Below, one piece after another: positions 9,201-40,300 of a stretch of DNA of 64,000 nucleotides. Origin of the DNA: Beroe forskalii (lineage: Eukaryota > Ctenophora > Nuda > Beroida > Beroidae); assembly GCA_011033025.1 (NCBI GenBank), contig WFMF01000084.1, forward strand, positions 248,001 through 312,000, written 5' to 3'. Numbering within the stretch: position 1 is the stretch's first letter; each line of letters starts with the position of its first letter. The notes under the pieces are model-generated. The model did not search any database. It was not told the origin of the DNA and saw only the letters and a program-made list of their open reading frames with translations. The translations under genes and the position numbers were made by a program.

Positions 9201-12200
9201 GTAAAACCTCTAATGTTTCTTGAGGCGGATCTTTGCCGTAACCAATGGTTATCATGTGGGATAGAGACCTGAATATCGACCATAAATACTGGTCCCAAAT
9301 CGAGGCTTCCTGAAATGACTGGGATCCAAGATTCTTGATTTGAATTTATTGAACCGACTTAACTTTTTCAAAATCTGGTGAATTTAACTGCATGGTAAAC
9401 TTCAAGCAAATTAATGAATTTTAAGATTATAAAAAGGTTCAAGTACTTCATACCTGTATATTTAACAAAACCGGCCAAGATTTCTCCGGAAAGTCCCTGA
9501 GGTAGACGACGAAGAATTGGAAGCACGCGCTCCAATGAGCGATCATGAAGAAAAACCCGAGGAGTTGGACGATCTTGATTACCAGGGGACTCAACTCAAA
9601 TATCTGCGGTAGAAAATCTTAATCTGATCGATAAAATGATAGGTATGAATTATTTATTGTAAGCAATGATAATGACCTCATCTCAAAACATCACGTGCTT
9701 TACCATCTAGACAATCAATAAATCAACTAAGACACATTGCTAAATACCAACAAAGCAATTGATTTAACACTTACTTGTATCCACCTTTTCAAGATGAAAT
9801 GTAGTCGCCCCAGCCGTAGAACTCGGAAAAGGGAGAACATTTTGAGTATTTTAGCTCCAAGCAGCGCCTTAGAAGCACCAGCAGCCAGCGAAATGTCCTG
9901 AGGAAGGAAGGTAGAAAATTTTTCTCTGTTTTGAACTTTTCACGCAGGCATGGTATTTTCATGCAATATGGAAGTTAGAGCACCCCTGACACTGAATGTT
10001 TTCAGTATTTTCAAGTTTTTTTCAGAAACATCTTTCCCCGGTTATATCCAAGTTTTCTAAGCAAAAACAACAGTTTGTCCCTCAAATCACACGCATAAAT
10101 GCGATAAAACTGGAGGACTGAAGATAAATGAATAACCCTACGTTGGTTTGATCAGATGAGATCTCGGTTCCTATCACATCGAATGGAATTGAAGCTAGCA
10201 AGTCAATGATGAACCAAGTCTTGAGATATCGCAGCTGAATCTCTTTTCTGTTCAAGTTTATCTGAAAAAAACCATCTATTTACTCGTTGAAAATCAGTAA
10301 TACAAATCAGCAGTATTACTTGGCCTTCATTCCTTATTTTTCATGTGGCATGTTTAAAATGCATTTCTTAAACATTATATCAGCAGCAAATCCAAGGTGG
10401 GTTGATCTTTGAAAGAACCCAATTAACAACAAACCCATGGCGTGTTAATTTTTTAAAATACTCTATAAACAACAAACCCGTGGCGGGTTGATCTTCTGTT
10501 CGACCGTTCCCGTAAAGAAACTCAGCACCACATCTGCCATGAATATGAGATCAATGAGAATGATGATGGGATACCAGTTCTTCCTCTCACTGGCCTTGTT
10601 GGTGTTGTGAAATATCTTGAAGAACGCCAGTTTGACAGGCAGGAGAATCATCATGAGGAAGATGGCAAAGAGGAGGACGGTGTCCCATAGCAGACTGAGG
10701 GGGACGTTAAGAAGTTACGAATGCTTTGATAATATCACATTACTATTACCGAACGATTTTAGATATTAAACAAGCGGTCGAAATCTAAACGCTTCATCGA
10801 ACGTGAAACTAGGTAGAATTGTATTTTTTGATAACAAAAGAACTACGTATCCCTACCGGAAGGTAAACAGAGGGTGTATGATAAATATTTTGCCTTCCAG
10901 CTGACCCCCACTAAACCCCTGCTGACCCCCTGGTAACCCCCTACTAACCACCTACCGGAATGTAGAGAGAGGGTGTATGATGAATATCTTGTCCTCCGTC
11001 ATGATCTTGTCCTGTCTCTGTCTGTCAGCCAGGACCCCCACCACCCCGTTATAGTACGTCTTGATCTTGTTGCTGGTAATGTCCGCCTCGAATAGGGAGA
11101 GGATCTTGCTCTTGCTGTATTCCTCCTCAGCAACCTGATCTCCCACCAGTCTGATGTACGTACGGGGGGTCATGAAGAGGGTCATTAATGAAGCAAATAA
11201 GCAAATATTTAAGTATTTAATTCTACGTCGAATTAATAAATATTTGTCATGTTATAAGTGGTAATTTGGACAGATTTTTAAGGTTTTACAAGTTGGAAAG
11301 TCCGATATATGGGGCTTAATAAGGAGCTAAAGAGTTCTAGGTTGTGCTCAAGTGGGATAAACGGATTGGGGGTCGGAGAGTTAAATAGTTAGGACGTGGG
11401 GCGACCATCGATGAAGAGGCTATAAAGTTAGGTAGTTTAAGTAGGTCAGTCTGCCTCGATTGAGTTATTCTTTAAAATTTGTTTCGATTTAATTAGAATC
11501 CGAGGCCGTTAATTTCTGTAAAGGTGTAAACAAGAGTTGCGCATTGCGCTCGCTTTCTGACTACATTTTTTCGAACGTTTTATGTCCCTTGATTTTATTT
11601 GTCATCTCAAATGGCAGAAACATCACGAAAATGAATATCAAATTTGAGTTTCATTCTCAACACGTACTGCTGAGGGTTTTTAAACTCGAATGATTCTAAC
11701 TTTCAATATCAATCGATTAAGCTAGATTCATCGGATCCGTATGTGACTTTCTTATTTCAATGATTCTTTTCAAATTCTAAATTCAATCATACGTTGAAAT
11801 TGTTGAAAGCTTTTATCCAGCAGTTTGTCAATATCTTATATATTATCAGAAATTGCAATGTTATATGGGCAAGAGACGAGAGCCGCTAAACCACTGTTTC
11901 CAATGTACAATTGTACGTGGCTAAGTTCTTGAGCTCTGGTTAAATGTAAGTTAGCGACAACGGACAGCATCATAATATCTATAATACATTCGTTATTTTG
12001 ATGAGTTTAAGAGTTCTCGCTTCAGCAGATGACGACAACGGACGGAAATCATGATTCGTGACGCGTGCGCACGTGAACAGCAATTCTGTTATCCTATTGG
12101 CTGTTATCATGTTTAACACAGCAGAGGTACTAGGTAGCTTGTACAAAAATTTTCGGGGCATTTTCAGAACTTGTCCATTTTTCTAACCTCAATGCATTTT

Positions 12201-12494
12201 TGTAAGATAAAGGGGCGGTTGGTGAGGGGAAATATGCCGTATTATTCCAGTATTACTGATTGCAATTCACTTGACTCACCCAAGATTACTGATTGACTCA
12301 CCCAAGTCCTGACTGAGTCCTATGCATGTTCCTCTCCGAAACAGACAGTCTGGGGTTGTCGTGAACGCTGAGGTCCGGTGTGACCTTGTTCTGAGGCAGA
12401 CTCACGGACCGTTTCCTGCACCGGTGATACCCCGCAAAGGACTGCCGTGTGGCACCCATCCGACTGCTCATGTGCGGCTGGAAGTTGACTGGCT
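6291..12494 (-). CDS. HCN: HCN-type hyperpolarisation-activated cation channel, 5' incomplete
   Basis: Fifteen exons on the minus strand join in phase: 12494-12302, 11150-10956, 10694-10478, 10261-10142, 9897-9775, 9603-9454, 9309-9208, 8624-8508, 8220-8074, 7919-7822, 7561-7404, 7285-7066, 6913-6788, 6731-6553 and 6394-6291 (stop). Together they give about 748 residues. Domains in order: the N-terminal HCN motif IIHPLSTFRLLWD leading into S1; S2 (IILIDLIFMADVVLSFFTG); S3 (YLKTWFIIDLLASIPFD); S4 (KALLGAKILKMFSLFRVLRL), which aligns to HCN S4 without gaps; S5; the pore SHMITIGYGKDPPQ with GYG; S6; a C-linker with FHHRYGG; and a cyclic-nucleotide-binding fold (GDIVVRSEDTIENLYVILKG, FGELPMLLRRKADMM). 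The Arg-Thr pair that contacts cAMP phosphate is Ala-Asp here. S4 keeps its C-terminal arginines but lost some N-terminal ones. The 11150 acceptor is chosen by phase. The start codon was not found. CNG or plant-type channels are less likely because of the IIHP and C-linker motifs. Confidence 0.88.
8970..9046. repeat. Clustered GTTCTGTCACAGAAC palindromes
   Basis: Two perfect copies of GTTCTG-TCA-CAGAAC and a partial third (TCTGTCACAGAACC) lie in this HCN intron within about 80 bp. The half-site order is the opposite of a steroid-receptor element, so a receptor site is not supported. Confidence 0.7.
10383..10500 (-). repeat. Triplicated exon end with 5' splice site, 43-bp period
   Basis: On the minus strand the last bases of HCN exon 10694-10478 and its donor (CCACGG|GTTTGTTG) are repeated in the intron. 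Copies of the GT fall at 10477, 10434 and 10391, exactly 43 bp apart. Copy 2 keeps GT (CATGG|GTTTGTTG). Copy 3 has AT and is dead as a donor. Use of copy 2 would add 43 nt and shift the frame. Confidence 0.8.
10853..11001 (-). repeat. Duplicated end of an HCN exon with donor, 99-bp shift
   Basis: The end of exon 11150-10956 (encoding KIFIIHPLSTFR and the donor CG|GTAGG) is repeated 99 bp further on as 10900-10857 (KIFIIHPLFTFR, CG|GTAGG). Over these 12 codons the copies differ at five codons. Four of those differences are silent and one is Ser to Phe. The second copy has AG before it but no pyrimidine tract. Confidence 0.8.
12272..12306 (-). repeat. Duplicated 5' splice site, 22-bp shift
   Basis: The donor of HCN exon 12494-12302 (minus strand CTTGG|GTGAGTCAA) is repeated 22 bp downstream with the same bases. 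Its GT is at 12279-12278 rather than 12301-12300. Both are strong donors. Only the first keeps the frame into the next exon. Confidence 0.8.
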
Positions 12495-14297
12495 CTGAAA
12501 TGGATCATGGGGTTATTAAATTTGAGGTACAGTTTGGACTTGGCAGAGTCGGAAACTTAGACTTTTTAAGTTCAGAATTATAATGTCGACATGGCAGAGC
12601 GGACTGTCCATGAAACTGATTACCAGGTCCAATGCATAATATTATTTCTGAATAATGCGCTTGGTGAAGTGGACTTCTTGTCATCCATGACATCCAGGGT
12701 TCGAGTTTCGGAGAAAACCTAACTCGTATAAGCGGTAAACGAGCCAGGCTAACCTTGGTAGTCCATCTTTTTCGATTATAATGCTACTGATATGCAAGAA
12801 TACATGTTTCATTTTCATAGGCTCGAGTTTTCATTGGCTCCTATAGCCTTAGGGAGTGAGTTGAAAACGTTAAATGATATGAGAAGTTATAAAATCAGGA
12901 GCTTTCGAAACTCATAGAGTGATTATCGTCGTATGGCCTGTTATTGACAATAAGATAATAATAATCATGATATCATTGTCATAAACGATACAATTTCATA
13001 ATTATAATAAAAATAATAAAATATGGTTGCTTTGACCGCCGTCAGGAGGGTTCTGCGGAATAACAAGCTCTAAGAGGATAGGAATTAGAACAAGTTATTG
13101 AGTCAGAGCCACTACCAATATTTTAATAAGAGGCCACCTGTTATTACGATCCTTAACTAGGATAGCAAGCGTTAGACGTTTGACAGTCAGATCATTAGAT
13201 CAACTTAGTTGGTATCAGAGTTAGTCTTTAAATATTTAATTCGTTGTGAAATCATGCAATATTCTGGTGGGTATCTGCATAAAGTATTTATCATTTTATC
13301 ATGACGCCATCCGAATTTCCCGTCAGTTTCTACGAATTTAAAGTGAATATTTTGGTTCGTTTCCCACTGCATCTCTCACGGTATGTCTTAAAATAGGTGC
13401 AATGTTACGTCTCTTAAATTTCCGATATTTTTGCATGGTAAATATAACTCCGGCAACAGAGAAAAATCGGAAACATTAACCTTAAGTTTCTGAGAAATCA
13501 AGAATTAGTGCAGACCAGTAATATTTTCATGAGCCTGAATCTTGTCTACATATATCCTATATCTTGGTGAACCTATACGAGTAGTATAACATATGCGTAG
13601 GAACCACGACTAAACGTTAATAACATGACGAAGCTAGCTGATCTCGAGGACTCCATTCCTCAACATAAATATATATTTTTGAATCTATACACTCTCACAG
13701 TGTAGAACTGTAAATATTGGCCGCACTTTTCTTGCGAGCTAGTATTTTGAACTATGTATTTTCGTTCTTGCTTTTGGCATATGCTTTTACTTACACTGTG
13801 GATTTTTACATCTTACTCTTGTGATTGTTTCAAGCTAGCGTAGTCTCGATTATATTGTACCTTGTTTCTACTTTCTAGTGCTTTTATTAAAATAGGGTAT
13901 ACTTTTACTTTTAAGGGGCAATATCAAAACTGGCTGATATAATAGCTGCAGTTGGTTCAGTCGCCTTGTTTAATGTTCATGACCAGATTCACCGTTTTTA
14001 GTCAGACATGAGACTTGTAAGGTGATTTTTTTAGCCCAGAAACCATGATATTTCTCGGTCATAAACGTGGAAAAGGGGTGATTCCAAAATTTTGAATTTC
14101 ACTTTCACCTTTTGGCCTAGAATTCCTGACATCTGTGGAAACATGCAACGAATTTTCTTTAACTATTGTCCCAATATCATGAACTGTTTGACCTAGTGTT
14201 GTTATGAGGACCTATTGTACACTGTAACGTGTTGGAACCACCACTGAACAACCGGTCTAGCCTCACCAATTAGTTAATAAGTTAATTATACGATGTT
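12495..14297. other. Upstream region of HCN, no gene recognised
   Basis: The HCN 5' end must lie here or in a longer upstream intron, since the first exon found begins with an acceptor (TTTCAG) and no in-frame start. I see no further exon with supporting homology. The region is AT-rich without strong repeats. Confidence 0.4.
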
Positions 14298-14380
14298 CAC
14301 GAGAAATAGGCGGGTAGGATGACGTCATTATCATAGCGTAACGTGGTGAGTTGATGACCTTGAACCGGCTATTTCTCGTG
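14298..14380. repeat. Short foldback element with TGACGTCATTATCA core
   Basis: CACGAGAAATAG (14298-14309) is the perfect reverse complement of CTATTTCTCGTG (14369-14380). Between them lies TGACGTCATTATCATAG then GTGGTGAGTTGATGACC. The core recurs near 16966, 38857, 48554, 57585 and 59368, so this is a complete-looking member of a dispersed family. Confidence 0.75.
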
Positions 14381-14592
14381 CGCGGAGTTTTGAAGGCAGT
14401 GGGGCCAGTAACAGGTGTGATAACGGTTACACACAAAAGAGGCAATCTTGCAACGGCCGAGTCCAGGGGACAAATCGGATGCCATGCACGTTCCAGGTCA
14501 AGAAAGAGTATATCTAAGTCAGTATGTCACATGACATGGCGAAACGTGACTTACACGAAATGTCACGTGAAGTTTATAGAAATTAAAATGTA

Positions 14593-16305
14593 GATGATGG
14601 TGGAGAAGAAGACATCAGAGAAGCAATCAAAGACCTTGACCCTTACTCCTCTACACCTGATGGTGACATTCCTGCCAAAGTCCTCAAAAGCTGCTCAGAT
14701 CAACTTTCCTATCCTCTCTATGTACTGTGGAAGTCATCATTTGACACAGGACTCATACCCAGTACCCTCAAAACACAGTATGTGACCCCTGTTTTTAAAA
14801 AGGTGATCAGACTGACGCAGCTAACTACAGACCAATCTCCATTACATCTCATGTCATTAAAATCTTTGAAAGAGTGCTACGCAAGAGAATAGTGTCACAC
14901 ATGGAGTCTAACAACCTTCTGACTGACAAACAGCATGGATTCCGGAAAAAGAGAAGCTGCCTCACACAGCTCATAGACCATGTTGACCATGTTTTGAAGT
15001 CCCTGAACAGTGGAGAGGAGGTTGACACAATCTACCTAGACTACGCTAAGGCTTTTGATAAAGTGGATCTCCAGGTCCTCCTAAGGAAGCTTCAGCGCTA
15101 CGGTATAGGTGGCAGGATGCTGCAATGGATACGCCAATTCCTTCTAAACAGGTTTCAGACTGTAGTAGTTGAAGGAACAAAGTCCTCCTTCCAACTTGTT
15201 ATTAGTGGGGTGCCACAAGGAACCGTCCTAGGGCCAATATTTTTCATCATTTACATCAACGACCAACTGGATGTACTCAAGACTGCTGATGGAAAGATAT
15301 TCGCCGATGACACCAAGCTTATTTGCCAAATAAGGGAGATAATCTCTCACATGCTCCTACAAGACGACCTTAACAATATCCTAGTTTGGTCAACTCGCAA
15401 CAACATGCTGCTAAATGGTAACAAGTTCGAGCTGCTAAACTACACCTTGAACAAGTCCATGTTACTCAGGAGCCTACCCTTCACCCAAGAGCTCCTTCAA
15501 TACACTCTTCCAGATGGTACCATTATCGAGCCCAGCACTACTGTACGTGATCTGGGTGTTTTGCTTTCAAATGATTGCTCATGGACGCCACATATCCATC
15601 AAATGCTCACCTCAACCAGGAAGGTTGCTGCCTGGGTCCTTAGCGTATTCCGGTCACGCTCCCCCACACTCATGATGACCCTGTTCAAGACAATGGTGAG
15701 GAGCAAACTGGAATATTGTTGCCCTGTTTGGAACCCAGCTAAAGTTGAAGACATCCGTGATATCGAAAACGTCCAAAGAAACTTCACACGGAAAATTAGT
15801 TCTTGCAAAGACCTTGATTATTGGGAAAGGCTGAAACAGCTTCGGATCATGTCACTCCAACGACGCAGGGAGCGATACATTATCATCCATACATGGAAAA
15901 TCGCCTGCGGAGATGCCCCAAATGACATTGGCATGGTATTTAAAACCAACTCAAGACTGGGTTTGAAAACTGTTGTCCCAAGACTACACCCGAAAGCTCA
16001 AAGGTCAGTCGCGACCCACTACAACAATTCCTTTGGAGTGAAAGCAGCCCAACTCTGGAATATTCTTCCCAAATCTGTTAATGAACAGTCCACACTTGAT
16101 TCGTTCAAAGTGGCTCTGGGAAGATTTCTTGAAAGCTTTCCCGACACACCTCCAACAACAGGATACACTGCTGTGAACAGCAACAGCCTTCTTGAATGGA
16201 ATGTTCAGAGATGCTCCAGAATGGCAGGCTTGGAAGACTCGCATGTTGACGTCGCCCATCTGTGATCCCGGCTAAACGGACTCTAAGGTACTCTAAGGTA
16301 AGGTA
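14593..16305 (+). mobile_element. CR1/jockey-like LINE, 5'-truncated, RT region
   Basis: The element begins in the region just before RT and runs to a 3' tail of short repeats (ACTCTAAGGT twice, then AAGGTAAGGTA, about 16275-16305), the usual short-repeat end of CR1/L2-type LINEs. RT blocks are visible: YRPIS, KQHGFRKKRSC, IYLDYAKAFDKVDLQ (catalytic Asp), SGVPQGTVLGP and the FADD box (KIFADDTKLI). After RT comes the usual C-terminal region. The frame is open from the ATG at 14874 to the stop at 16265 (463 residues). Upstream, codons from 14593 are in another frame, and one missing base in the run near 14801 explains the shift (a GDQTDAANYRPIS-like segment is broken). Endonuclease and ORF1 are absent. 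The copy cannot move by itself. Confidence 0.9.
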
Positions 16306-17219
16306 AAAAGATGCAGTCCTTCCCAAGAGGAAGCAATACAGACATGATATATTACTAGCATTCTAATGCACACGTGACATTGCTTGTCATAGCTCTACAT
16401 GTCAAAATGCCAGTTAGACATGTTAGTATTATGTCACTTGAGTTTCCAAGTGCCTTGAGCCAAAACTGTATCGCGCACATGATGGTCTACAACAGTTGGA
16501 ATGATCTCATGTACGGAGTAACATTCTAACATTGAAGTATCAACGTAAATCCATGAATCGCTCTGACAAGAATCAAATGCCAATATTCTGAACTAAATTC
16601 TCATGAAAAGAGGCAGAAATCTTTCGCTTTTACTCTAATACTGTAATAGTGCAGAAGGACTAGAAGTAACATACTGACATTACTAGTTGCGGACTTGACG
16701 TGACAATTGACATGATATTGGTTACAAATTTTCAACCGTTTTCCTATTCAAAGATCTTTTATACTTTTATAACTTTACATAAGAACTTATATAACATGGT
16801 GTTGATAGTTATTGCCTGAAGACAAAAATCTCATATATCTGATGAATAGATAAGTAGGTAAGAATACAAAAGCTATTACTTTATTATTTATGTATGTCAT
16901 ACTCATATAGCAATGGTTGTGATGACATTTTACAGAAAACACAGTGGATAACAGAAGGATGGCAGTTACGTCATTATCATAGTTTAGAATGGTGAACTGA
17001 TGACGGCTGAACCCAAGCATTTTGTGCGCGGTACATGAATGTATGCCCGTTGTATGTCACTACAATATATATGGTTTGTTAAATGGCCCTCGACTAATCG
17101 ATGAAAACTCCGCAGTGAGCGGTCACTACTTATAACCAGCTGATGATAATTTTAACTTTGGATTGTTGTAGCGTAGCCTGTCCGCACGAATCGCATTAGT
17201 ATATTGCTCGTTTTGATAG
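16306..17219. other. Intergenic, one copy of the dispersed TGACGTCATTATCA motif
   Basis: No gene is recognised. Near 16966-17034, TACGTCATTATCATAG...GGTGAACTGATGACGGCTGAACCC...GTGCGCGG matches the core of the foldback at 14298-14380. Confidence 0.6.
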
Positions 17220-18955
17220 CCTTTTCGGCATTGATAAGCCCAAAAACGCGATTTTAACCCCCCATAACAGACAGAAAATGGCTGATTTCGGGATTCTGAA
17301 GTATGGTATGTCTTTCTTAGGTCGTTCATGGATGGCGTGCAAATTTTCAGCTCAATCAGCCAAAGCTTTTCGATTTCGAATCTTGGGTGCCTCAGAAATG
17401 AAGACACGCCTGGATCAATGTTTTTAGAGGTAAAAATAGGTTTTTTTGGATTTTACAGGAAAACAAAGGAAAACTGGCGAATATCATTGGTTCAGTGGTT
17501 TCAGGCGCATAATTTATGACCAGATACACTTCTATTTGACCACCCATGAGACATCTACGCCCAATAAGGGGCGAAAAAAGGCAGTTTTTAAGCCCAAAAA
17601 CGCGATTTTAACCCCCCATAACAGACAGAAAATGGCTTATTTCGGGATTCTGAAGTATGGTATGTCTTTCTTAGGTCGTCCATGGATGGCGTGCAAATTT
17701 TCAGCTCAATCGGCCAAAGCTTTTCGATTTCGAATCTTGGGTGCCTCAGAAATGAAGACACGCCTGGATCACTGTTTTGAGAGGTAAAAATAGGTTTTTT
17801 TTGGATTTTACAGGAAAACAAAGGAAAACTGGCGAATATCATTGGTTCAGTGGTTTCAGGCGCATAATTTATGACCAGATACACTTCTATTTGACCACCC
17901 ATGAGACATCTACGCCCAATAAGGGGCGAAAAAAGGCAGTTTTTAAGCCCAAAAACGCGATTTTAACCCCCATAACAGACAGAAAATGGCTTATTTCGGG
18001 ATTCTGAAGTATGGTATGTCTTTCTTAGGTCGTCCATGGATGGCGTGCAAATTTTCAGCTCAATCGGCCAAAGCTTTTCGATTTCGAATCTTGGGTGCCT
18101 CAGAAATGAAGACACGCCTGGATCACTGTTTTGAGAGGTAAAATAGGTTTTTTGGATTTTACAGGAAAACAAAGGAAAACTGGCGAATATCATTGGTTCA
18201 GTGGTTTCAGGCGCATAATTTATGACCAGATACACTTCTATTTGACCACCCATGAGACATCTACGCCCAATAAGGGGCGAAAAAAGGCAGTTTTTAAGCC
18301 CAAAAACGCGATTTTAACCCCCCATAACAGACAGAAAATGGCTTATTTCGGGATTCTGAAGTATGGTATGTCTTTCTTAGGTCGTCCATGGATGGCGTGC
18401 AAATTTTCAGCTCAATCGGCCAAAGCTTTTCGATTTCGGATCTTGGGTGCCTCAGAAATGAAGACACGCCTGGATCACTGTTTTGAGAGGTAAAAATAGG
18501 TTTTTTGGATTTTACAGGAAAACAAAGGAAAACTGGCGAATATCATTGGTTCAGTGGTGTCAGGCGCATAATTTATGACCAGATAAAATTTTATTTGACC
18601 ACCCATGAGACATCTACGCCCAATAAGGGGCGAAAAAAGGCAGATTTTAAGCCGAAAAACGCGATTTCAACCCCCCATAACAGACAGAAAATGGCGAATT
18701 TCGGGATTCTCAAGTAGGGTATGTCTTTCTTAGGTCGTCCATGGATGGCGTGCAAATTTTCAGCTCAATCGGCCAAAGCTTTTTGATTTCGGATCTTGGG
18801 TGCCTCAGAAATGAAGACACGCCTGGATCACTGTTTTGAGAGGTAAAAATAGGTTTTTTTTGGATTTTACAGGAAAACAAAGGAAAACTGGCGAATATCA
18901 TTGGTTCAGTGGTTTCAGGCGCATAATTTATGACCAGATACACTTCTATTTCGTG
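17220..18955. repeat. Satellite array, about 353-bp unit, about 5 copies
   Basis: The phrase GGGATTCTGAAGTATGG or a close variant starts at about 17290, 17644, 17998, 18350 and 18703, giving periods of 354, 354, 352 and 353. Copies are very similar. Open frames in all directions here come from the repeat and are not genes. Each unit has a short GT...AG stretch (GAGGTAAAAATAGG...TTTTACAGGAAA) that looks intron-like but is only about 35 bp. The array ends about 40 bp before the first exon of the next gene. Confidence 0.95.
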
Positions 18956-18993
18956 TTATTTCCTAACAAACGGCCTTGACTATTTCCTCAGAA

Positions 18994-26139: not shown

Positions 26140-27161
26140 TTATAAGAAGTAGTAACTGTAAACTCTTGTTCCTACTCCAAGCTTATCAGATAATTGATCT
26201 ATGACTCCAGTTAGAATAATGACATTCAGAGAATTCATTACACCATTCAGCTCTGACATAAAAAAGAAAATGAAAGGTACAATACTCACAGCTACTATAG
26301 CTGACAAGTTGTTGAACACATTGCAGTTCCTCAGGAGTTGTTGAGTGTCATTCAATGTCTGAAATTAACTAATTAAGCAATCAATACATCTCATTTCCTA
26401 CGTCCCCATAATCATATGATAAAAAGATAAAAAAGGGATAAGTTGGAAAGTATTCGATCTCTTGTATTCACATGAAATGCATTTAGCATTCAGAATTTCT
26501 CACAGGCAAAAAATCACATGAACTAGCAGTGAATCAATAAATTAAACAACTTACAATGAAGTCATCAAAAGGATCTGATAACGCTGAGGTCCTGATTAAA
26601 TCATTTTTATTCTTAATAGTGTTCTTATTCTTATGAGTTGGAGTCTTTGATTGTGGCATATTGTCAACTTTAATGTTTTGATGTACTTGTATTCTTCTCA
26701 CTCTTTTTCTGGTATAATCAGAAGTGTGACTGAAGTGCTTTGGGGCAAAATCACTTTCCTGTAGCTGTCTGTCTGGAGTGAAATTTTCACATTTTGGAGC
26801 CATTTGAGACCAACAATGTTCAGATTCTTCATCTTCCCATGAACTGTATGGCTGACAACAATCTAATGCTGAAAATAAGTATTCTTCTTAGTAGGACTGA
26901 CTTGATTGAAAAAGGCCTTGATAAAGACGGGCAAAATTTTGTGTTTTTGACAGAATTTATATAGAATGTTGGAGTGCGCAGAGGAAATCTGCGCATCTTG
27001 ATGGAGGCCTCAGTCAATCGAGCCGTCTGCACACATATGCATTAAAATGATGATGATTGGTACTCACAAGGTGATGATAAGATAGAAGGTAATTGCAAGA
27101 TATCATTATCCCAGATATCATCGTATCTCTCTAACTGTTCAACTATTACTTTCGGTTTCAT
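26140..27161 (-). CDS. Unrecognised 208-residue protein with C-terminal membrane segment
   Basis: Three minus-strand exons join in phase: 27161-27068 (ATG at 27161-27159), 26868-26555 and 26358-26140 (stop). The introns are short (199 and 196 bp) with good GT-AG sites (CTT|GTGAGT...TTTTCAG; ATT|GTAAGT...TTTCAG). The N-terminal half is acidic with Trp (ERYDDIWDNDILQLPSIL, YSSWEDEESEHCW). The middle is basic and Ser/Thr-rich (YTRKRVRRIQVHQN). Near the C-terminus a 20-residue hydrophobic stretch (LSAIVAVSIVPFIFFFMSEL) suggests a tail-anchored or single-pass protein with the N-terminal part in the cytosol or nucleus. I do not recognise the family. It is divergent from the tectonic gene, about 1.2 kb apart. 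Clean splice sites and phase support a real gene. Confidence 0.7.
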
Positions 27162-27829
27162 TGCTGAATTGAGATTATACATTAAACATACATTAAACAA
27201 TTTTGTTGAACTTGATTGCTTATAGCATAAACTGAGGGGGCCCCATAGTGAAACACTTAAAATGCAAAATGGGTTCAAATCAGAATTACTCTACATCACT
27301 GTTTTACTGCCAGTTTCGAGAATTAAACAATTTTACAATTTAATTTAGTATAGAACTGAGGTTTGAGTTAGTTATTAGATTGATTATGATAATATCTTCA
27401 TGGCACCAATCTACTATGGTGGCAATGAACTGACTTAAGCTGGAAGACAATTTTCATCTATTCATCTTTTTTCTGACATAAAGCCATGTGACTGTCCCTT
27501 AGCTTTAGTTAAGTGAAATGTTGCCATGCTTACAAGTTAAGGGTATGAATGATCTCAGATACAAGCATTCATATAATAATTAATTAATACATCCAATACG
27601 CTCCCTATTGTGAGCCCAAAGAACAAATATAATTGCTAAATATCCGATCCATTACTATTATAATTATTTATTCACCAAATTCGAATCATTGTTATTCATC
27701 CATTAAAAATAAATGCAGTGTACTAGCAATTGGTTACCAAAATAAAATAATCTGTATGCTGTTTATATCAATGAACTAAATTTGTTCAGAATCATTCAGT
27801 GAAAGAATCAGTTTGCCGCATGCTATGTG

Positions 27830-28332
27830 TCCATGTCCCTGTTTGCTTGCGCGCGCAAAATAGGTCCTACAACGTAGCACAAGAATCAGTGCAAAATGCA
27901 AACAAAATCAAATTTTGCGACTTGCGTTGATTACAGCAGAATTTCCCTTAACCAGGGGTGTCGATTAGCGCTTGCCGCGCCGCGCACTTTGCTCCAACCT
28001 GCAGGCCAGATCCCTAGTTTTACGCGCGCGCGGGGAAAGTTTTTGATAGGGGAAGGCAAAGCGCAAATGTGACTGTTCAAGTGTGGAACGCGAACGTTGA
28101 GCGCGTTGAGCGGGGAGGTACTGACATAGGGTAGGGTTACATACTACAAAATTTGTTTTGTAGGATGTTACTCCACCCTTGCGCGCGCGGTGCAACGTTC
28201 CACATTTGCTCAAAGAGCGTCCTGCGTCAGCGCCGCGCACTTCTGTATCACTAACCCTTTTTTACAAATCGAGCGCTAGATATTTTCGTTTGTTCGGCCC
28301 GGTAGCATCAAACGTCGCCATCTCTGTGTGAC
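27830..28332 (+). promoter_or_regulatory. CG-rich region upstream of the tectonic gene
   Basis: GCGCGC-type words cluster here (near 27850, 27975, 28025, 28180, 28240) against an AT-rich background. This is a likely promoter for tectonic and perhaps for the divergent gene. GTCGCCATCT, resembling a reverse YY1 site, lies at about 28314-28323, ten bases before the ATG. No TATA box is evident. Further upstream, GTTGCCATGCTTAC at about 27530-27543 has one perfect RFX half-site (GTTGCC), with the other half only partly conserved. Confidence 0.5.
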
Positions 28333-29902
28333 ATGATCGCTTGTATTACCATTGTGATATTTTCCCTTCTGAACTGTTTGGCATCTTCCCAAGTATGCCT
28401 GTGCGATTCAACTTCTATTTGTGACCTGCTATGTTGCTGTGACCCGGACTGTGACTCCGATGAAAAGGCCTCGTTCACGTGTGATACGAGTGTTTCCAGT
28501 AGCTCATCAACAGACGAGGTCTGTTTATCCAAGGATTTGTTCAGTCGATATACCGTTGATGATGGGTATTCTGTGACTACAGAAAATGACAGATATTGTT
28601 TTTCTTCTTTGTCTCCTGTTATCACCTCATCGACCGTAACAAAGTCCTTGAAAGCAAGTTCAATTGATCTTAGAAACGCAAACCTTCCGTTTGCTTACAG
28701 TAAAGACTTTAAGAAGATCGCTTTGTCCCGTGAGGTATCAAAAGCTTTCGATCCAGTATATATCCATTCTGAGGATTCAGGGATCAACAGTCCCCTGGTC
28801 TTGCCTGCTGGCCTTAGGAATAACTGCGTACGGGACTCAGTTTTGTATCTTCGAAACTCCAGTAGCACGTGTTCTCTAAAAATCACATCTGAAGTTTGTC
28901 AAACCGGGAACAAGGTTGACGGTTCTACATACGACGGATTAAAGTTCCTGTCTAACTTTCGGAATTACACCACTTTCAATGAAACCACCCTTGAAGTGGG
29001 ATTCGAACTTATCGAAGTGACGACTACATGTTACGACGAATCAAACACTGCTGTAACCTGCTCGCCTCCAACTGTTAGCTCAAGTAATTGCTTGAACGTG
29101 TTATACAAGATTGATCTTGTTATGCTGCATACTACCAGTATTACATCTGCAGAGTTCAAGTTGTACCTGAAAACCATAGCAATTGACAGTACCTCTACTT
29201 TGGCAACAACCGTTTCGTTTCAATCTGTATCAAACGATTATCCCATTGTTGGACCACGGTATCAACGGTACAAGCCAAAATTTGGTGTGTATTTCAATGT
29301 TAGTAAAGAGAAAACATTCTTCACTCCTTTTAAAAGTGACACAAGCTGCACAGCCCTTCGGAAGATAGAGTTCCCTTTTTCTTCTATCACAAGTTGTTCC
29401 AAAGCGGTATCTTTGGCTAGCACTGACTTTCCTGGTCTAGTCAGCGGTCTTTATGATGGCTTACCGAGCGCTTTGGCAAAGTATTACAACTCTGATTTGG
29501 GCAATGCCGATGAATGGCTCGCCCTCGAATGGCAAATACCCGAAGTTATCAAACGCCACAAATGTACCCACGCTCGTCGAAATGACGATAAACCACAAGA
29601 GTTTTGGGAGTAGGACGTATCCAGAAAACGATATCATCTCTGTCGTCACATCTGTTTCTACGTCTAATCTTCAGGCATTGAACAACCAAGATCTGCTTCG
29701 TGACAAGGTCGTATTCTACTTTTCCGTCCGATTTTTCAGCGTCGATGCAGACAATGTTCAAGATGAACACGTTTTTGATAGGTTGTCACGAACTTTTCCT
29801 GATTACAGCTTTCCATTCCGCATGTTATTTGTTGCTGTTGTGGTGTTCGTTGTTCTTAGTCTTGGAATTTTAATATGGGAGCAAGGCAAGCCAGAGTTTT
29901 GA
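28333..29902 (+). CDS. TCTN: Tectonic family protein, intronless, one frameshift
   Basis: Tectonics are secreted or membrane proteins of the ciliary transition zone (MKS/B9 complex) that gate cilium entry. The first frame (28333-29613) starts with a signal peptide (MIACITIVIFSLLNCLASSQ), then the Cys-rich tectonic hallmark CDSTSICDLLCCCDPDCDSD, and a long extracellular part with many paired Cys. Between about 29530 and 29610 the coding frame moves to the next frame. It goes on through NDIISVVTSV... and ends with a membrane segment (MLFVAVVVFVVLSLGILIW) and a short tail at 29902, the type I layout of TCTN2/3. Apart from this shift there is no stop in about 520 codons. There are no introns, whereas vertebrate tectonics have many. 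The shift may be an assembly error or a real lesion. I cannot say which TCTN paralogue it is. Confidence 0.82.
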
Positions 29903-31304
29903 TCAAACTTTGTGGCAGGCTTCCACAATTCTTATCTCTTAAGCATAGAGAATACTGTACTTGCTCAGAATGTATGTATATCTATGGTTTATTTTTAGCT
30001 ATCAGTTTATCATATTCATTATTCATGCTAATTTATTTCGTCAGATTCATGAATATAATGTTTTATCAGACGATCATTAATGTACCAGTCATAGAAGTAC
30101 CCACTCTGACTGATTTCTGCGTATGAAGTCACAAAGTGTTTTGTACATTCATCTTTATACCTGCTCATAATCAAATTACCATTAGTAAATTAGTTTTTCT
30201 TCTGCAACTGGCTTTTTGAAATGATCTAATATGGCACTCCAATGTCCACGTCACATATAACAATGGTTGATGCATAGGATTTCTTATTTTTCACACTTTA
30301 GTTAAATACTTATAGTGTGACTCTGTACGTGTATTGAATGCTTGTATAATTCATGTACATTGTACATTCAAGTAATAGTGGAAGGCCGGAAGCGTTATAG
30401 CCCAGTCACTTCACATCCCATTCCTGTTTACACTTTGCCAAGCACCCCTGAAATATAATGACGAGTCTTACCGTTAAACTCTTGGTTAAGTTAAACAGCC
30501 CTTTATTTCTCAGAGTAATGTAAGAAGTTGAAGTAAATGCTGTCTGATAATAGAGTTATTATTTGTAGCTCGACTCCCAGCTTCTAAATTGATTTTTACA
30601 TACTTGACAGTTTACTGCAGTTGACTTATAAAATATTTATAATATTTGATGTAAATAATATGTGCTATGTAATTTATTCTATGTACAGATCACTTTATTT
30701 AATATTTTTGAAAAATATTAATCTTATATTTTCATTGTCTAGTCGACATGGGTATGACTATATTTATAGCTATAATTTGTTTCCATAATGCAACAACTTT
30801 CATGCTGTTTTGCAATTATATCTCTCTCAAAACAACGCCATAAACTGGTGTGTAGGTACATTTGCGGGACTGAAATGTATGAATTGTATGACCTGTACGA
30901 TGTATACAGTAAGCTGTAACAGCGTAACATATCATCATGTACAGTGTGTGTTTATACAATGTACATGAGTAATGTTGAGTTACTGCTGCATGCCACATGG
31001 TAACGTAGCCAGTCTAGCTGACTGCGCTTTACTCTAATCTGTGTGCAAGATCTGGTCGCTATTTTGCTTAATAGTTAATTGTAACTGTCTGTGTTGCTAT
31101 GTTTCCTTCTATTTTTGGAGTCAATTTATTATCGGAATCAGCGTGAGTTTTGGACAGAGTTCTTGATAAATATCACGCTTTACATGACAGTTTTAGATAA
31201 AAACAGTAGTAGTAAAAAAGTTTTGGATAAACCCTACTGTTTAACTTTGCCGCAGTAGTTTCAAATAAAGCTAATGATTTCCCCTCTCCGCATGTAGCTA
31301 TGTG
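29903..31304. other. Intergenic, tectonic to MAGI
   Basis: AT-rich sequence without recognised coding potential or marked repeats. The MAGI promoter and any 5' untranslated exon should lie here or overlap the ATG exon at 31305. Confidence 0.5.
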
Positions 31305-34300
31305 ATGCCAGATAGAGACGACTGGGAGCTCAGTGTAAAGACAGTAAAACTCTCTCGATCTGGCGATGGGTCCTTTGGTATCTCCATCGAGGGAGGATCC
31401 GATAACGGAAAGTAGAATGTACACGTGTACATTGTACAAGTATACATTGTACAAGTATACATTGTACAAGTGTACATTTTACAAGTTTACGGTACATAAT
31501 TCAAGTGTATACAAGTAAATAGTAACATGTGCACGTGGGTCTACCTATATGTTTTGAAATTTACATATTTTGGTGACTAAAATCTGAAGGGAATTTTAGC
31601 AATCCCCCAATCCAAGCGTCAAATGCTTTTCAGGTCTCAGGCCTACCTGATGCAGCCAAGCGTCAATGAGTAACACAACAAATAATTTCAGAGCAGAGAG
31701 AAAGACTAATTCTACTGTAGAAGTTCTATAATTATTCTTATTATGAACACTTTCGTAGTTTTCTACGGAAGTGTTTGCTTCAAATCGAAGCATTTACGGT
31801 TGTCGGGTGGTGTGTCAAACTCCTACGTGCGTGGCTTTTCCATGCGCGGTGTAATCGTGCACGGCTCACTGGCTGTTAATCACAGGTGGTAGAGGGCCGC
31901 GCATGAAAAAGGCGCGCACATAGGAGATCGACAAGCCACCGCTATCCCCCCCCCCCAATATTTATAACTCAATATTTCAATAAGCTGTCAGAAGCAGCAG
32001 AAGTATAAATTTTACTAGAATACACTGTACAAGTATACATTGTACATCATTACAAAGTTAAAATCTGTACTGTACTGTGTACTAGTTTACATCGTACATA
32101 GTAAAATGTGTGCACGTGGGACGTGTGTTGGTTGTAAAATCTATACCCGGTGACTAAAATCTAAAGGAATTTTAGCACTTCTATTTATCAAATCATGAGC
32201 AAATTGTCTGATATTGTTGTCACAAATATTTTTGTCACATACTTTGGAAGTTCAACTTCAAATAATTGTATATTTCATTAATATTGAACGCGAATAACTC
32301 ATTCCTGTCAGTGAAAGCAAATTGCAATCACTAATTATTGGCTGTTATCCCTCTGCTATTTAATCTTCAACCCCTTCTCCGACCCGAGCGTAAGATGATT
32401 TTCAGTTCTCAGGGCTACCTGATGCAGCCAAGCGTCAAAGAGTAACACAACAAATAATTTCAGAGCGAAGAGAGAACGATAATTGTGCTGCAGTAGTTCT
32501 ATAATTATTCTAATTATGATAAATTTCGTAGTTTTCTACGGAAGTATTTGCTTCAAATTGAAGCATTCATCGCCCCCCCCCCCCAATATTCTGTCAGAGA
32601 CAACAGAATTTCGCGCATTGAAGCATTATAATATGAAGATAAAATTAAAATACCTTTTCGAGAAATGTGCTTTCGGCACAACGCACTTAATTTACGAATA
32701 TTTTTGGGTGAGGTCATAGTTTAATGTTTTGTTTTGTTTTGTTTTGTTTACACTTAGCACAGTAAAACTCGGATAAGTTTCATGTTCTAATTAACCTTTC
32801 AGAGCTGCTGTGTCACAGCTTACAGCGTGAGACATTTACTTTACTCATTCACAGGAGGGTCGAGTACCTACTGCTACGTGTACACACTACTCAGATTACT
32901 TCCCTTCTGTAATTAAACCTAATTCACGCATGTGCCACATCACTCACACTCACACATACAGACCTACATACACACATTCCTTTCTCTGCACACAGGTAAC
33001 ACTGTAGGTTGTAATTAACACATTATGTATGTACACACTGTGAATGATTCTATTTCTTAATTGAGTTTTCGTTTATGCCTTTTGAATCAAGAATTGTCAT
33101 ATATGAATGAAATTTGACATTTCTTTCATAATTTTCATTGTTCAATTCTGATGAAAGTCCTTACTTAGAACTTTGGGAGTTCACACGGCTGTGTGATTGA
33201 ATATATTGACATGGTGGCCTTTCATCCCCCCCCCCCTTCTATATCTAATTATATGGTTTGTTGAATTGACTTCATCATGGCAGAAACCACCGCTATTTGT
33301 GTGCTTACCATGACAGTGTGAAAGTAGCTCAGGGTTGAATGACACTGATCCACCAAGTTGGTGAGTTTGGTCATGCGAAGAGTATTATTATGACATATGG
33401 TGCCACTTTCCTCACCCTCTCCCCTATAGGAAAGTTCGGCCATGTGGACAGTGTTCGAGAGAGTGTCATAGTGGCACAGGGTGACATTTCACCGGGTGAT
33501 ATTATCCTGCAAGTTAACGGTGATGCGGTGGGCGGCTTCATACACTGGGATCTGCTCTGTGAGATCAGGAGATCTGGGAGCTTGCTGACACTGCTGCTTG
33601 TACCGCAAGGTGAGAGTGGGATGTGAGAAGTGGGAAAAATTGAGAGTGGGAGGTGGGAGAAGGTTAGTGTTGGTGGTGGGAGAAGCGTTGGGAACAGGGG
33701 TCTTCATGATGCGAAAATTTGTGAAACTTGAGATGCGTTGCTTTAGATCTCAGCATTTAAAACACAGTTTGAGTTAGGGATACTCTCAGTGTTTTGAATT
33801 TTGAAATACACATTCCTTTGGCTTTTACTGATGCCTTTTAAGTAACTTCAGTCTACACTGCTTGGCGTTTGTAGACTACTTCATAATTCCGAATAGAAGC
33901 TTTGCGTCTTTCTAAATTAATCACAAGCATCAGTCAACACAAACATTACAAACATCCTGTATTTTGTGTGGAATCAGTACTTCACATAACAAAATATCAG
34001 ATTACTCCTACTATTATAGCGGTAGTAGATTTAGTTACACTCAATACCAGAATACCAGACTTTCATTATATTTACACACGCACACTGTGTCCTCTTTCAC
34101 GGTCCGTTGTATAGACTGAAAATACACTGGGTTTAATTAGATGAGTGATATGTCCGCGTGAATTCACTGTGTAGTGTGTGATTGTTTATGTAACAGACTA
34201 TTAATAAGTCGGTCCTTTGTAAACACAAACACATAGAAATCATAAACACGCAGTGATTCAGTGGAATATCAAGTCATGAACTAGCAGAGGATGTAAAATG

Positions 34301-37300
34301 TCCATTCTTTCGCCCGTAATCGAACTTTCCTTTCATTTAAGCATTTAATGGGCATGCAAGCATTTCCCTTTCGTAAAATTCACAACCGTATCGCACCCCG
34401 GTGAAACTAAAATCTTAAGTCTCATGGGAGCTGAGAGGTTCAAAGATATTGGCAGTCTTTTGAGCTTTTGGATCTGTGTACTCATGGTTCATATGAACGC
34501 CTAATAATCTTCTTATCAGGGCTAATGCCGGTCTTACAGTCACCTTGAAGAACTCCATCAATAATATCATTAGATGTAGTTCTTTGAGAACACCTGCTCA
34601 ACTTCTAAACATAGTTTACACTGGTGTCTCCCCAAAACAATGAAATCTCTGCTTGTGACCGCGCGTGGGACAAAATTCGAAAAACATCTTTTTTAACTAG
34701 CAGATTTTGTCCTCAGCGCTGATGTAACCATGACTTTTTAGCAGTGAGTGTGTTGCGCGTTAGCGCGCGCATCGCCCGTTCGCGGTTTTGTCAAGTTTAA
34801 GTTGCACGCCGCGTACAAAAACGAAAACTTATCCACATGATTCATGAATTGGTCATTCATCATAGAGAATGGCTCAAACACATAAGCCTCTAATTTGTTC
34901 CGATTTACTCAAACATTTAAATGTAACTCGATACGGCTGAGAGTTGAATTGATCGAATTTTCAATTTTCCCATTTCCAGAATCACCGAAATGACATTTTC
35001 ATTGTGCCCGGGCAATTACTGCAACGACACCTCGTCATTAAAAACACCATCTTTATATCAATCTGGGGCACGCTGTCTGGAAAAGATGGATTCGTGTGTA
35101 GTCGCTTCACCTTGTGCTGTTTCAGGTAGAGGCCTCCCTCTGGATCTTGCCCAGTTTCTAGCTCCGAAATTTGACGAAGATTCAGAAGATTTCAAGCTAC
35201 AGAAAGTTGTACGACACAACATCTTCATTAAAACGCTGCCTTGTAAGTTTTGTTCATTTCCATTAAAACGTCTTCACTCTTAATTGTAGTAGTTTAATCT
35301 TTCTACAGTTAGACTTTAGAGTGTGTCAAATGACTGTCTCACATCGTCTTACAAAAAACTGAAACTCTCTCTCTTTCCTCTTCGTCTATTTGGTACCCAA
35401 CAGTACGCATTCTCATTTCTCAACTGTCACTCACTGTACAAATTTGCTATGCTATGATAAAAATAGGCTGCCGCGGCCCGCCATTGATTTGCCTTAATTA
35501 AATTTTAATAAATTTAATACCGGTGATTCACCTTGGACTGTCAGGATTTCAATTCACTTCATGTGTTTTTTCAACGGTACGTCTATTCCTCATACCGATT
35601 GTTAACAAATTTTATTCTATATTTGAGTTTGCAGATAGTCTCCAAATTCAATTATCATGAGTACTTGGTTACGATTTAATAAAACTATAACGTCCAACTC
35701 ATTTTCCTAAAAATGCTAACTCTTATGAATATTCGCAAAAATTCCAGACTACAAAATATTCATGTCATGACCGTCTATCAAAATTATCATATCGCAAATA
35801 AATAAAATGCGCTGATATTAATGGCCTTCTGCTAAAAAAAATTAACCGTTCGACATCGCCAATTAGACATTTTCAGCTATGAAAATGAGATCACTTTCAT
35901 TCGCCTATTATTTCTGAAATACTACGAAAAAAACGAACATATGCGTCCAGATGCAATGAAACATGTGCCCCCATTATCCAACCTGACCACCCTAAAATGA
36001 GAACCAGATAAGGTCTACCCGTCTTAGATTTCTCTACATTTGTTATTTAACACACGCACGGGAAATTTGAAATTTGTATCATATGATTTAACATCTTTTT
36101 ATCAGTGATAAATTGCTTATCATGTAGTTAATTAATAATGTGCTTGAAATACAAGTATATTCTAGTTTCATTTAGAGCGTAATTCACTATTATCAATTTG
36201 TATCAAACGACTACTCATTTATCTCGACGATTTTGAAGCATGTATTTAAGTTGTTTTGTAACTGCGCTTTTTACGGGAACCATTCAACGACCACTTTTCA
36301 TGTTACAGATAATATATGGTAATTGGTATGCATAATATGTATCCCATCGTAAGTATATCAGTAATGGGGCACGTGTTGTAGTGGTATTTTCTAAGTCTTC
36401 TCGTGACGTATATCTTCACGTTATCTCGCGTACCTAGGAGGAGGACATTAAATTGTAGATGAAGAACATCCACTGTCGTACTATGCTACATATGAGTTCT
36501 TTCTTACTTTTTACCAAAAAGATATAAGTACTTACGTACTTTCTTTTCTGTTTTAAGTTGTTTCAATGTTTTGAAAATTGAGTCGCACATTGAAAATATT
36601 TGGCAGTGATTAATATCTTCCAAGATAGGGGGCATCGCAATATTCCTGAACATAAATCGGTATCTATTTGTTATTAATTTTGATGTCCTGGTTAATTTCA
36701 TCTCACTCTCTACCACTAAAGTTTAGATCCACCTCTTCTCATTAGTCTGCCAGATCATCTTTTTTCTCTGGTGATCAAATCAAAGTTTCCCAAACAATTA
36801 TATTCTAATTAATTTGAGATCGTTTTTTGGCCTCTAATGGGAACAAAGTTTCCTGAATCACATTTCTTGTTTGGTATCTCAACTTCTACACAACCATCTA
36901 CAATTCTAGATTTGATCTCTACTGTGATCTATCTCCTTCCAATAGCCACTATGTGGCAGTCTCCATTATGTGCCACCTTACAGCGCAATAAAGAAAAAGG
37001 TGCTTTTTATGTTGTCATTACCACAGTTTGGAATGATGAATTATTAACGTCGGTCTGTCTATTGTACTCCTATATATCTGACTAATGTATGGTTCTGTTT
37101 TCCTGAACTTTCCTGGACTGCGCTGTGTGAGATGCAGCCGATGGACACAGTAACACTCGTCATTGGTTTTTCTCCGAGATATAAACATTGCAAGATGACC
37201 TCCTTATACGTTACGTTGCCTTCTTTCAGGGATGGAGAGCATTGCAAGATGAGTTTTTTAAACGTTATTGTCTCCTTTCACGCTATTCTCTCCTTTTCAG

Positions 37301-40300
37301 AGCCTGATTCAGACCACTGATTTGTATCCCTGCGGATTTATTGTCTTTGTTGGAAAGTGATGCATTTATTCTCCCCCGATTGCTATTAGCCTCGGAATAA
37401 TTAAGGGTTAATCAACTATCCTATAGGAACGAGGTTTATCAAGGTCTTGTTTTTCCAATGGATGCAGTAAGAATGAAGTGCTAATCGGGTAGTGACTTGC
37501 TCGCGCTGAAATGCCATATATACTTAATATTATTTTATCATAACTGAATCTCCTATTGTCAAAATATAATGTACTTTTCATCCCTTTGAACATTGCTTTG
37601 CCGACAGTTTTCCGATTGGTCTACCAAGACCTTGAAAGGAGGAGAAAAGTTAATTCTTGTCCGCCCTTATTCACAACTCAGTTAGCGACTATGCTATAGT
37701 CATGATAGTTTGTGTCTTTTTATAAGACCAAGTTATTGACCTGTTCTACATTATATAGCTATAAACAAACCACACGTTCTTAGTTGTGTAGGTACTTACT
37801 GTGTATTATTTATGTGTTATTATCTTTATCAAGCTGTGTATTTAAGTGTATATTTTCAACCTCATATTTATTTATTCCCACATGAGTCTTATGAAAGTAC
37901 GAAATGTTTCTGTTTCTATGATCAGGAATTCTTTTGTCCATGAAACTCGTTATCTTGTAATTCCGATGAAATGGCTAGAGTCACATACACCATTTAGGCA
38001 TATTTATCTCGCAATTTTGAACATTCCTGTCGCTAAATATATTTGTTAAATTGTCTATATTATCTCCACAAGTTTCGCACATTATTATCAGTCTACGTTT
38101 CCTCTCATCTTCTTCATCACTGAGGTTTCCGCATTTTGATACATATTTGTTGTACTATAGATCACTGGTGTGAAACCTTTGGCGTGTGTAAATTTGAGAT
38201 TGTTGCCACTCCTCTGCAACTCTTCCGCCCTGAATACAAGTCAAATTGTTCATTAATTTGTAGTTGGTTATTTAATGATAGTTTACTGCATCGTTTAGTG
38301 GATCTTCAAGGGGCTTCTTGCAGAGGAGAGAGTGCATAAGAGGATTTTGTCGGGTTTTGACAAAATTGTTCAATTATATGTCTAAACTTGGGTGCTGGGG
38401 TCTCTTGCACCACTTATAAGGACGACTCATTAGGCATGTTTGGTTTTGATCTGCTGGTTTAGTGAAAATAAACCTACCGAACGTTTAGTGAAAATAAACC
38501 TACCGAACGTTTAGTGAAAATAAACCTCCTGAGAAGGGTAGTAGCTTGTGGGTAAACTGAAGCTTGGGGGTCAACTGTAGTTCGGGGGTAGCCACGCCGT
38601 ATGATGGTATGTACCGTGATATAATGGCTGCTTAAATATGTAATGAGTACACTATACATCCAATAACATAATAGTAAAGTATTAAGTAATCAGTACCGTT
38701 AGAGCTTGGAGTCTGTGGAGTCACATATGTTCATCAATGTATACCACCCTGGGCTGATTCCCGTTTTATCTTTATTATTTTGTGTATTTCTGGCGTCATT
38801 TCGGTCGCTGTCTCGTTCTTATAAGCCGAGGACGCTATATTCGCAATTGAGAGTGGCGTCATTATCTGAACTTGAAGAAGTGAATTGATGACGTCACACC
38901 GCCTATTCCGTCGTCAGCCTGCCTTGTCGGAGCCCGTGTGTCTCTAAAAACCCTCATTTGATCCTGGTCTTTTCGTGATGTATTTTGTACGTTGAATCGG
39001 TATTAAAGCTCGGAAGATGGTATTGGCTCGTTTATGCCATTTTTATTTGCCGTCACGCCGACAACAATTCTCGGTTTAAATACCTGCCATTTACCATGAA
39101 ATTTTGTATTTATTGTGTTTTTTGAATATGTTCATCTCTCTGTATAACTACGATCTCTAGACATCCCCTCGTTTTCTCTTTAATTTCTCTCTAAAACTTC
39201 CTTTTTATCTCCATGTTAGCTCACTATCAATATCATTTTGGCTAACCCCCTTTAAAACCCCTCTACCTTTAATCCCTATTTGTTTATCAAATTTTGAATC
39301 TACATTATACACGTCCTATCTAGGCACCACGAGACCAGCCCGTATCGATGAGAAGCCCGGACTAGACTACCTCTTCCTCACGGAGGAAGACTTCGCTGAC
39401 ATGGACGCCAAAGGTACGTGCTATCTTGGATATCTAAGATATGGACGCTAAAGGTACGTGCTATCTTAGATATCTAAAATATGGACGCTAAAGGTACGTA
39501 TGTAATCTTAAATCTTCTTCAAATAAATCTTAGATATCGGCAAACCACTGTACAGAAGTGATACAATCTGATCAATCCATGTCCCTACCCATTCTTAGAT
39601 ATTCATCAAATGTATTTTCACCACCCTCCAGAAATGAGGATTATTCATTGTTTTTCAAATTATTTCAACAGTTTAGAAGCTGTGCGATGGATTCTTACTT
39701 CTTAGGTTTGTAGGTAAAAGGAGGGTTCTTCCTGGATGTGATGAGGTGTTATCGAGGAAGATTTCCATATCTGTTCACTGTGCAGTGTAATTGATCGCTT
39801 TGAATAGTTCCCACCACCATCATTCATGAAGCGCTTTTAAAGCCTCAAGTTATGCGAACATCAGTCGCATATAAACTGATAAGCGTCATAAGATGCAAAT
39901 ATTTCAATCTTTTAGTAGTTAGAAGTTTCCTGAACTTCTTGAAAACCTCCAGGCGCTTAGCACAAGTTTCCCACATTCACTATATTCGATAATACCCTTC
40001 ACTATTCGATAATAACGTCGACACGTTATATACACACCATGTGTTGCAATTACTACTGGTGTTGAAAAGGCTGGAATCTATATCAGATGTGCCTATAATA
40101 TGTAATGTATGTTTTTAGGAGACACATTTTTTGAAATTCTACATAATATGATAATTTAAATATATTTATTATGCCTTCAATAGTTTTACAGTAATTCTCA
40201 TAAATGGTTTTAGTAATTCTCATCATTTTGATATTTTTCTCATCTTAGAGTGAATTGAGTTTTCTCAGTAAAGTTTTTGCAAGATGTAACCATTTATAGT

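Follow-up and report, generated by a model that had tools for sequence, protein, structure and literature searches.

Tandem copies of 5′ splice sites in a sample of the Beroe forskalii genome resemble the mirage minisatellites of lancelets

Tandem repeats that lie across exon-intron boundaries are known from lancelets under the name of mirages, the founding paper on which reportedly appeared in 2002. In the lancelet genes BflGb6, BflGb9, Adh3, TnC, and PGBD5, the boundaries are duplicated in tandem, the repeats are unstable in length, and splicing is reported to be normal (PMC3087553, PMC3902484). A related element in human CBS is the 31-bp variable number tandem repeat (VNTR) c.1444_1467+7(16_21), which by its name has a unit of 24 exonic and 7 intronic nt, repeated 16-21 times (PMC2630376). 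The VNTR of human ABCA7 intron 18 is built of 25-bp units, and its first GT serves as the donor (5′ splice site) of exon 18; 12 to about 427 copies and retention of one unit in RNA are reported (PMC5954066). Here we describe tandem copies of donors in a 64,000-nt stretch of the ctenophore Beroe forskalii (the window, C958:248001-312000; assembly of 216 Mb in 1134 contigs) and in the DNA around it. In the window they occur in a minus-strand gene whose best solved relatives are HCN channels and in a plus-strand gene recognized by homology as MAGI.

The kind of element is already known from lancelets, human CBS, and ABCA7; what is new is its frequency across many genes and its excess at donors. 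The two systems share minisatellite-like boundary duplications and many copies of a splice signal, and copy number, which varies in the lancelet repeats, differs here between two gene copies; the lancelet repeats concern single genes and both 5′ and 3′ boundaries, and the present ones yield a rate over 173 donors together with a donor excess. The ctenophore repeats span exon ends supported by homology in several genes, and their units of 22-99 bp fall within the range of about 10-160 bp reported for mirages. By titles and abstract openings, in a literature mostly without subscription papers, no genome-wide count of donor-spanning repeats was recognized. We consider it probable, at roughly 0.75, that the copies are donor-anchored minisatellites of the mirage kind, in which the first donor would be used and the seeding duplications, or their survival, would be biased to donors.

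The scan covered 314 kb, consisting of the window, 200 kb of C958 contiguous with it (together a 264-kb stretch), and 50 kb of a second contig. Numbers preceded by A are positions in the 264-kb stretch, and the C958 position is A + 148000. Exon ends were taken from a self-trained exon-chaining finder with sequence-only input, junction copies were judged by direct reading and self-alignment, and the locus count was curated by hand, with two donors re-placed (A185357 and a PH-domain exon) and one exon (A6456) dropped. Among 173 predicted good donors, 13 loci (11 independent) have junction-spanning copies, the figure for 182 acceptors being two (Fisher test, p = 0.003 for all loci and p = 0.009 for the independent ones); in the window alone, 4 of 21 good donors have them. 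The loci cluster by gene, with three in HCN, three in MAGI, and two in a thioredoxin-like gene. The two acceptor cases, A210627 in an OTUD5-like array and A186904 in MAGI, were kept from 15 listed acceptor candidates. An extra, gene-poor 20 kb beyond the sample held no donor-spanning case.

The excess was measured by moving repeats at random with limited overlap of exons (1500 relocations; score cut-offs of at least 14, 20, and 26). At a score of at least 20, 10 donors were hit against 2.59 expected, a count reached in 0 of 1500 relocations; at 26 or above the figures were 10 and 2.14, and at 14 or above 12 and 5.03 (p = 0.005), where the 12 include a weak case, A-5688, that is not among the 13 loci. 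For acceptors, observed and expected numbers were 2 and 2.70 (at least 20), 1 and 2.22 (at least 26), and 2 and 5.31 (at least 14). With the window excluded, 7 donors were observed against 1.63 expected at a score of at least 26 (0/1500) and 8 against 4.07 at a score of at least 14 (p = 0.041), which bears out the view of the initial annotation that the recurrence goes beyond chance; its further suggestion of a process biased to exon-intron borders fits the donor excess over relocated repeats. Relocation of arrays called by Tandem Repeats Finder (TRF) gave 7 observed donors against 1.49 (p = 0.0005) and against 2.17 (p = 0.0055).

Several results weigh against a general preference for donors. 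All cases are on C958; the second contig, with 34 good donors, has none. When all weak TRF arrays are added, the comparison becomes 7 vs 3.60 (p = 0.07); the excess is pronounced among clear arrays and dwindles once weak ones are included. Plain repeat coverage at donors (12/174, donor set before corrections) is about that of deep intron (327/4184). The acceptor word TTTTCAGG is also in tandem excess genome-wide (695 vs 150 places for its comparison word). A purely neutral account, which we hold to be a plausible though minority explanation, would have duplications arise at one rate everywhere, be eliminated from exons and to some extent from acceptors, and be tolerated at donors, which act like intron. 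It draws on the equal coverage, on the fading of the excess with weak arrays, and on the richness of deep introns in minisatellites. Array starts are a fair measure here because only the first unit of an array can cover a donor, and they exceed relocation, as given above. They also heap in exon tails: at a TRF score of at least 100, nine arrays begin between 5 and 40 nt before an exon end (36 bp; seven once the PH exon and one partner of a gene-copy pair are taken out), the following 299 bp of intron hold six starts, and the mirrored count in exon heads at acceptors is one. In a post hoc comparison, uncorrected, T stands at +3 in 6 of 11 array donors and 30 of 160 others (p = 0.012).

In the genome as a whole, donor-like arrays are common. 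The word CAGGTTAGT is followed by itself within 10-40 bp 630 times, and the reversed word 35 times, with single-word counts of 2646 and 1802; pairs of CAGGTAAGT number 237, against 20 for its comparison word. These pair counts are weighted by long arrays and refer to places, not loci. They establish neither an excess of donors over acceptors nor a real exon at the start of every array; as the acceptor word is also in excess, the donor bias is shown for the sample only. The 5′ rather than 3′ bias claimed in the initial annotation consequently stands in the 314-kb sample and may not extend beyond it, the lancelet repeats, too, being reported at both boundaries. Among arrays free of exons, donor-like words are in mild excess (11 of 61 vs 5.5 expected, position weight matrix score at least 5), and a coding-like open reading frame (ORF) upstream was found in none of the ten exon-free arrays listed (best log-likelihood ratio 1.8). 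In the units of 97 arrays, donor arrays included, TAGGTT/AACCTA occurs in 12 arrays against 2.3 expected and GTTAGT in 7 against 2.6. In a set of 14 genome-wide units read letter by letter, the sense frame is open in 13, but the antisense frame is likewise open in 13, which is little proof. Very long arrays were also seen, of a donor-like word at G000:C248:400078-414397 and of acceptor-like words at C10:9834-13200 and C2:82000-83586, all with periods near 38-46 bp.

At the four donors nominated by the initial annotation, reading and self-alignment confirm tandem copies of exon tail, GT, and intron head, and the exon finder placed exon ends at all of them (12302, 10956, and 10478 in HCN, 39413 in MAGI) as well as at 33609. 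At 12302, CTTGGGTGAGTCAA is present twice at 22-bp spacing with 14/14 letters identical, and inspection by eye shows an insertion of 11 bp in the second copy. At 10956, 40 of 47 letters are identical at a 99-bp shift, the second donor reads GTAGGG, and use of the first joins TFR/LLWD (the slash marks the junction) without a gap against HCN1. The three copies claimed at 10478 are present, but the GT of the third is lost (GGATTTG), leaving two donors, not three. Homology does not fix the exon ends at 12302 and 10478, the latter falling in an alignment gap. At MAGI 39413, three identical donors, AAAG/GTACGT, start at 39414, 39454, and 39494, and the first gives the join DAKG/LLLEKGT, gapless against MAGI2. 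A fifth, weaker case at 33609 does not belong with these, since its repeat is intronic and the exon tail is uncopied (Table 1).

All nine non-window loci are on the C958 stretch. In a mitochondrial-carrier gene, presumably a phosphate carrier, a Pfam Mito_carr match spans the first-donor join KCRIQ/VDPDKYK, and in the MAGI PDZ exon the first donor gives EGDLIVQ/INNEALL, gapless by homology. Wherever homology tests it, the first donor is the one that yields the conserved protein, and we infer that it is also the one used in RNA. The OTUD5-like gene is named from an upstream exon (E 7.9e-6), the array-bearing exon itself being unmatched; the thioredoxin-like gene, with no Pfam match above cut-off, is so named on our assumption; and the Ig-like label refers to Pfam Ig matches below cut-off.

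Table 1. Positions of donor-spanning repeats and associated features (plain numbers, window; A, 264-kb stretch).
Feature	Position	Strand	Details and basis
HCN N-terminal exon, predicted	12302..12494	-	exon finder
22-bp duplication over HCN donor	12271..12306	-	5 nt exon + 17 nt intron; direct reading and self-alignment
HCN exon before S1	10956..11150	-	exon finder; homology
Paired HCN copies at 99-bp spacing over donor at 10956	10852..10997	-	42 nt exon copied; self-alignment
G-rich minisatellite of about 11 bp between the two HCN 10956 copies	10900..10953	.	many other genome places
HCN exon S1-S2	10478..10694	-	exon finder; homology
HCN 43-bp unit x3 over donor at 10478	10364..10495	-	self-alignment
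Intronic GTGAGAGTGGGA-like repeat after MAGI donor 33609	33610..33635	+	direct reading; no exon tail copied
MAGI guanylate-kinase exon	39324..39413	+	exon finder; homology
MAGI 40-bp unit x2.5	39398..39499	+	direct reading and self-alignment
MAGI donor array	A184510		31 bp x 2.8; 25 nt exon + 6 nt intron
MAGI donor copies, uneven	A185357
Mitochondrial-carrier gene array	A94055-97557		28 bp x about 123
OTUD5-like gene array	A206649-209070		34 bp x about 72; 28 nt exon + 6 nt intron
Thioredoxin-like gene arrays	A261252; A259997		37 bp; 30 bp; different exons
Inverted-copy counterparts of thioredoxin-like arrays	A242885; A244157
Ig-like exon	A3184		61-bp unit x 2; no GT left in the second

Part of the thioredoxin-like gene is an inverted duplication (C958:390757-392948 and C958:407257-409379, or A242757-244948 and A259257-261379). 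The pair is 90-92% identical over 2.2 kb, and the array has about 4 copies in one and about 11 in the other, these being gene copies of one assembly. The OTUD5-like gene also has an acceptor array at C958:358599-359055 (A210599-211055), with units of about 39 bp that each contain TTTTTTCAG and the exon head; the predicted exon start is the last copy. The minisatellite inside the HCN 10956 duplication is GGTTAGTAGGG-like, has more than 100 matches elsewhere in the genome among those listed, and includes GGTTAGT, a word shared with several array donors. Elsewhere in the window, arrays at 17235-18951 (354 bp x 4.9) and 50940-53744 (162 bp x 17) touch no predicted exon, and 28306-29899 holds long ORFs with a cysteine-rich start, which we take to be of tectonic-family type.

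Some candidates were set aside in curation. Predicted exons within repeats (e.g., A51131-51371, A88790-90322, A149057-149312, and B26291-26358) were rejected as cases; the true donor of the PH-domain exon at A-24741 lies upstream (A24778), leaving the repeat intronic; A-238397 faces a stronger exon on the complementary strand; A+242242 is a spurious exon antisense to an acceptor-side array; and A+6456, a repeat-borne exon, was dropped from the final counts. That the arrays as a class are artefacts of assembly or gene prediction is the least probable of the explanations weighed here. The exons are ab initio, and several first-pass hits were indeed exons within repeats or misplaced donors, yet the long arrays contain 62 distinct units among 123 (carrier) and 19 among 72 (OTUD5-like), unlike a looped assembly, and homology backs exon ends in several genes.

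Across the loci, a unit combines 5-42 nt of exon with about 6-57 nt of intron. As in CBS, the units of the OTUD5-like gene and of MAGI A184510 join exon to intron, while the CBS repeat is that of one gene and is polymorphic in people. ABCA7 likewise has a donor-spanning array; its unit is described as starting at GT with no exon tail copied, and splicing effects are documented there. The initial annotation held that none of the four window periods keeps the frame. This fails for 10956, since 99 is a multiple of 3, though translation past the first donor would reach a stop immediately; its expectation that later donors give a frameshift or a stop was upheld. Over all loci the periods are mixed in frame, a later donor would bring a frameshift or a stop, and all 13 read-throughs examined contain a stop, which in the carrier comes only in the third copy.

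These properties bear on whether tandem donors are retained to tune splicing or to route transcripts to decay, a regulatory use that the initial annotation had raised and that we regard as improbable. GT is kept in 109 of 123 carrier copies and 71 of 72 OTUD5-like copies, the MAGI PDZ exon stays open across three extra donors, and one extra unit is reported to be used in human ABCA7 (PMC5954066). Against this stand the mixed periods and stops just described, the loss of GT at HCN 10478 and the Ig-like exon, and a donor core about as variable as the remaining positions (0.099 in the carrier vs 0.095 in the rest of the exon part and 0.063 in the rest of the intron part; 0.028 vs 0.030 for the rest in the OTUD5-like gene). 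Since the copied donors show no conservation beyond that of their units as a whole, there is no sign of a regulatory use.

Intron birth, in which duplication of an exon segment with AGGT supplies both donor and acceptor and the array is itself the new intron, is very unlikely. The mechanism is known, and like the present arrays it rests on a duplication that carries splice signals, but there the new intron arises from exon sequence, whereas here an existing donor is multiplied (PMC3443670, PMC4974935). Long arrays do occupy much of the carrier and OTUD5-like introns. In both genes, however, the intron is not made wholly of duplicated exon sequence: the units hold intron sequence that is absent from the next exon, and unique intron separates the array from that exon.

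For donor-anchored minisatellites, we propose that a tandem duplication of about 20-100 bp would take in 5-42 nt of exon tail together with the 6-57 nt of intron that follow the junction, and would survive as the protein is unchanged while the first donor is used. Slippage or unequal exchange may then expand and contract some of these duplications into arrays with as many as about 120 decoy donors, lengthening the intron from its 5′ end, while other copies would decay. The pattern fits neutral seeding, tolerance through a working first donor, and ordinary minisatellite turnover. The preference for donors may reflect a mutational bias at the border in the founding duplications or better survival there. 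More tentatively, and with some doubt, 5′ splice sites could be hot spots of tandem duplication, at which a border-linked process in transcribed genes duplicates exon tail and donor at several times the rate of other DNA; the seeds would grow into arrays, and splicing would have to single out the first donor in a row of nearly identical ones that can number about 120.

These observations call for caution among gene annotators and users of repeat maskers, and they provide an animal counterpart to the human donor-spanning VNTRs of CBS and ABCA7. They set a rate on a phenomenon described from single genes, as several per cent of the donors in the sample carry tandem copies. In one genome, two questions become open to testing: the status of exon-intron borders as possible hot spots of mutation, and the way in which the spliceosome chooses among many identical donors.

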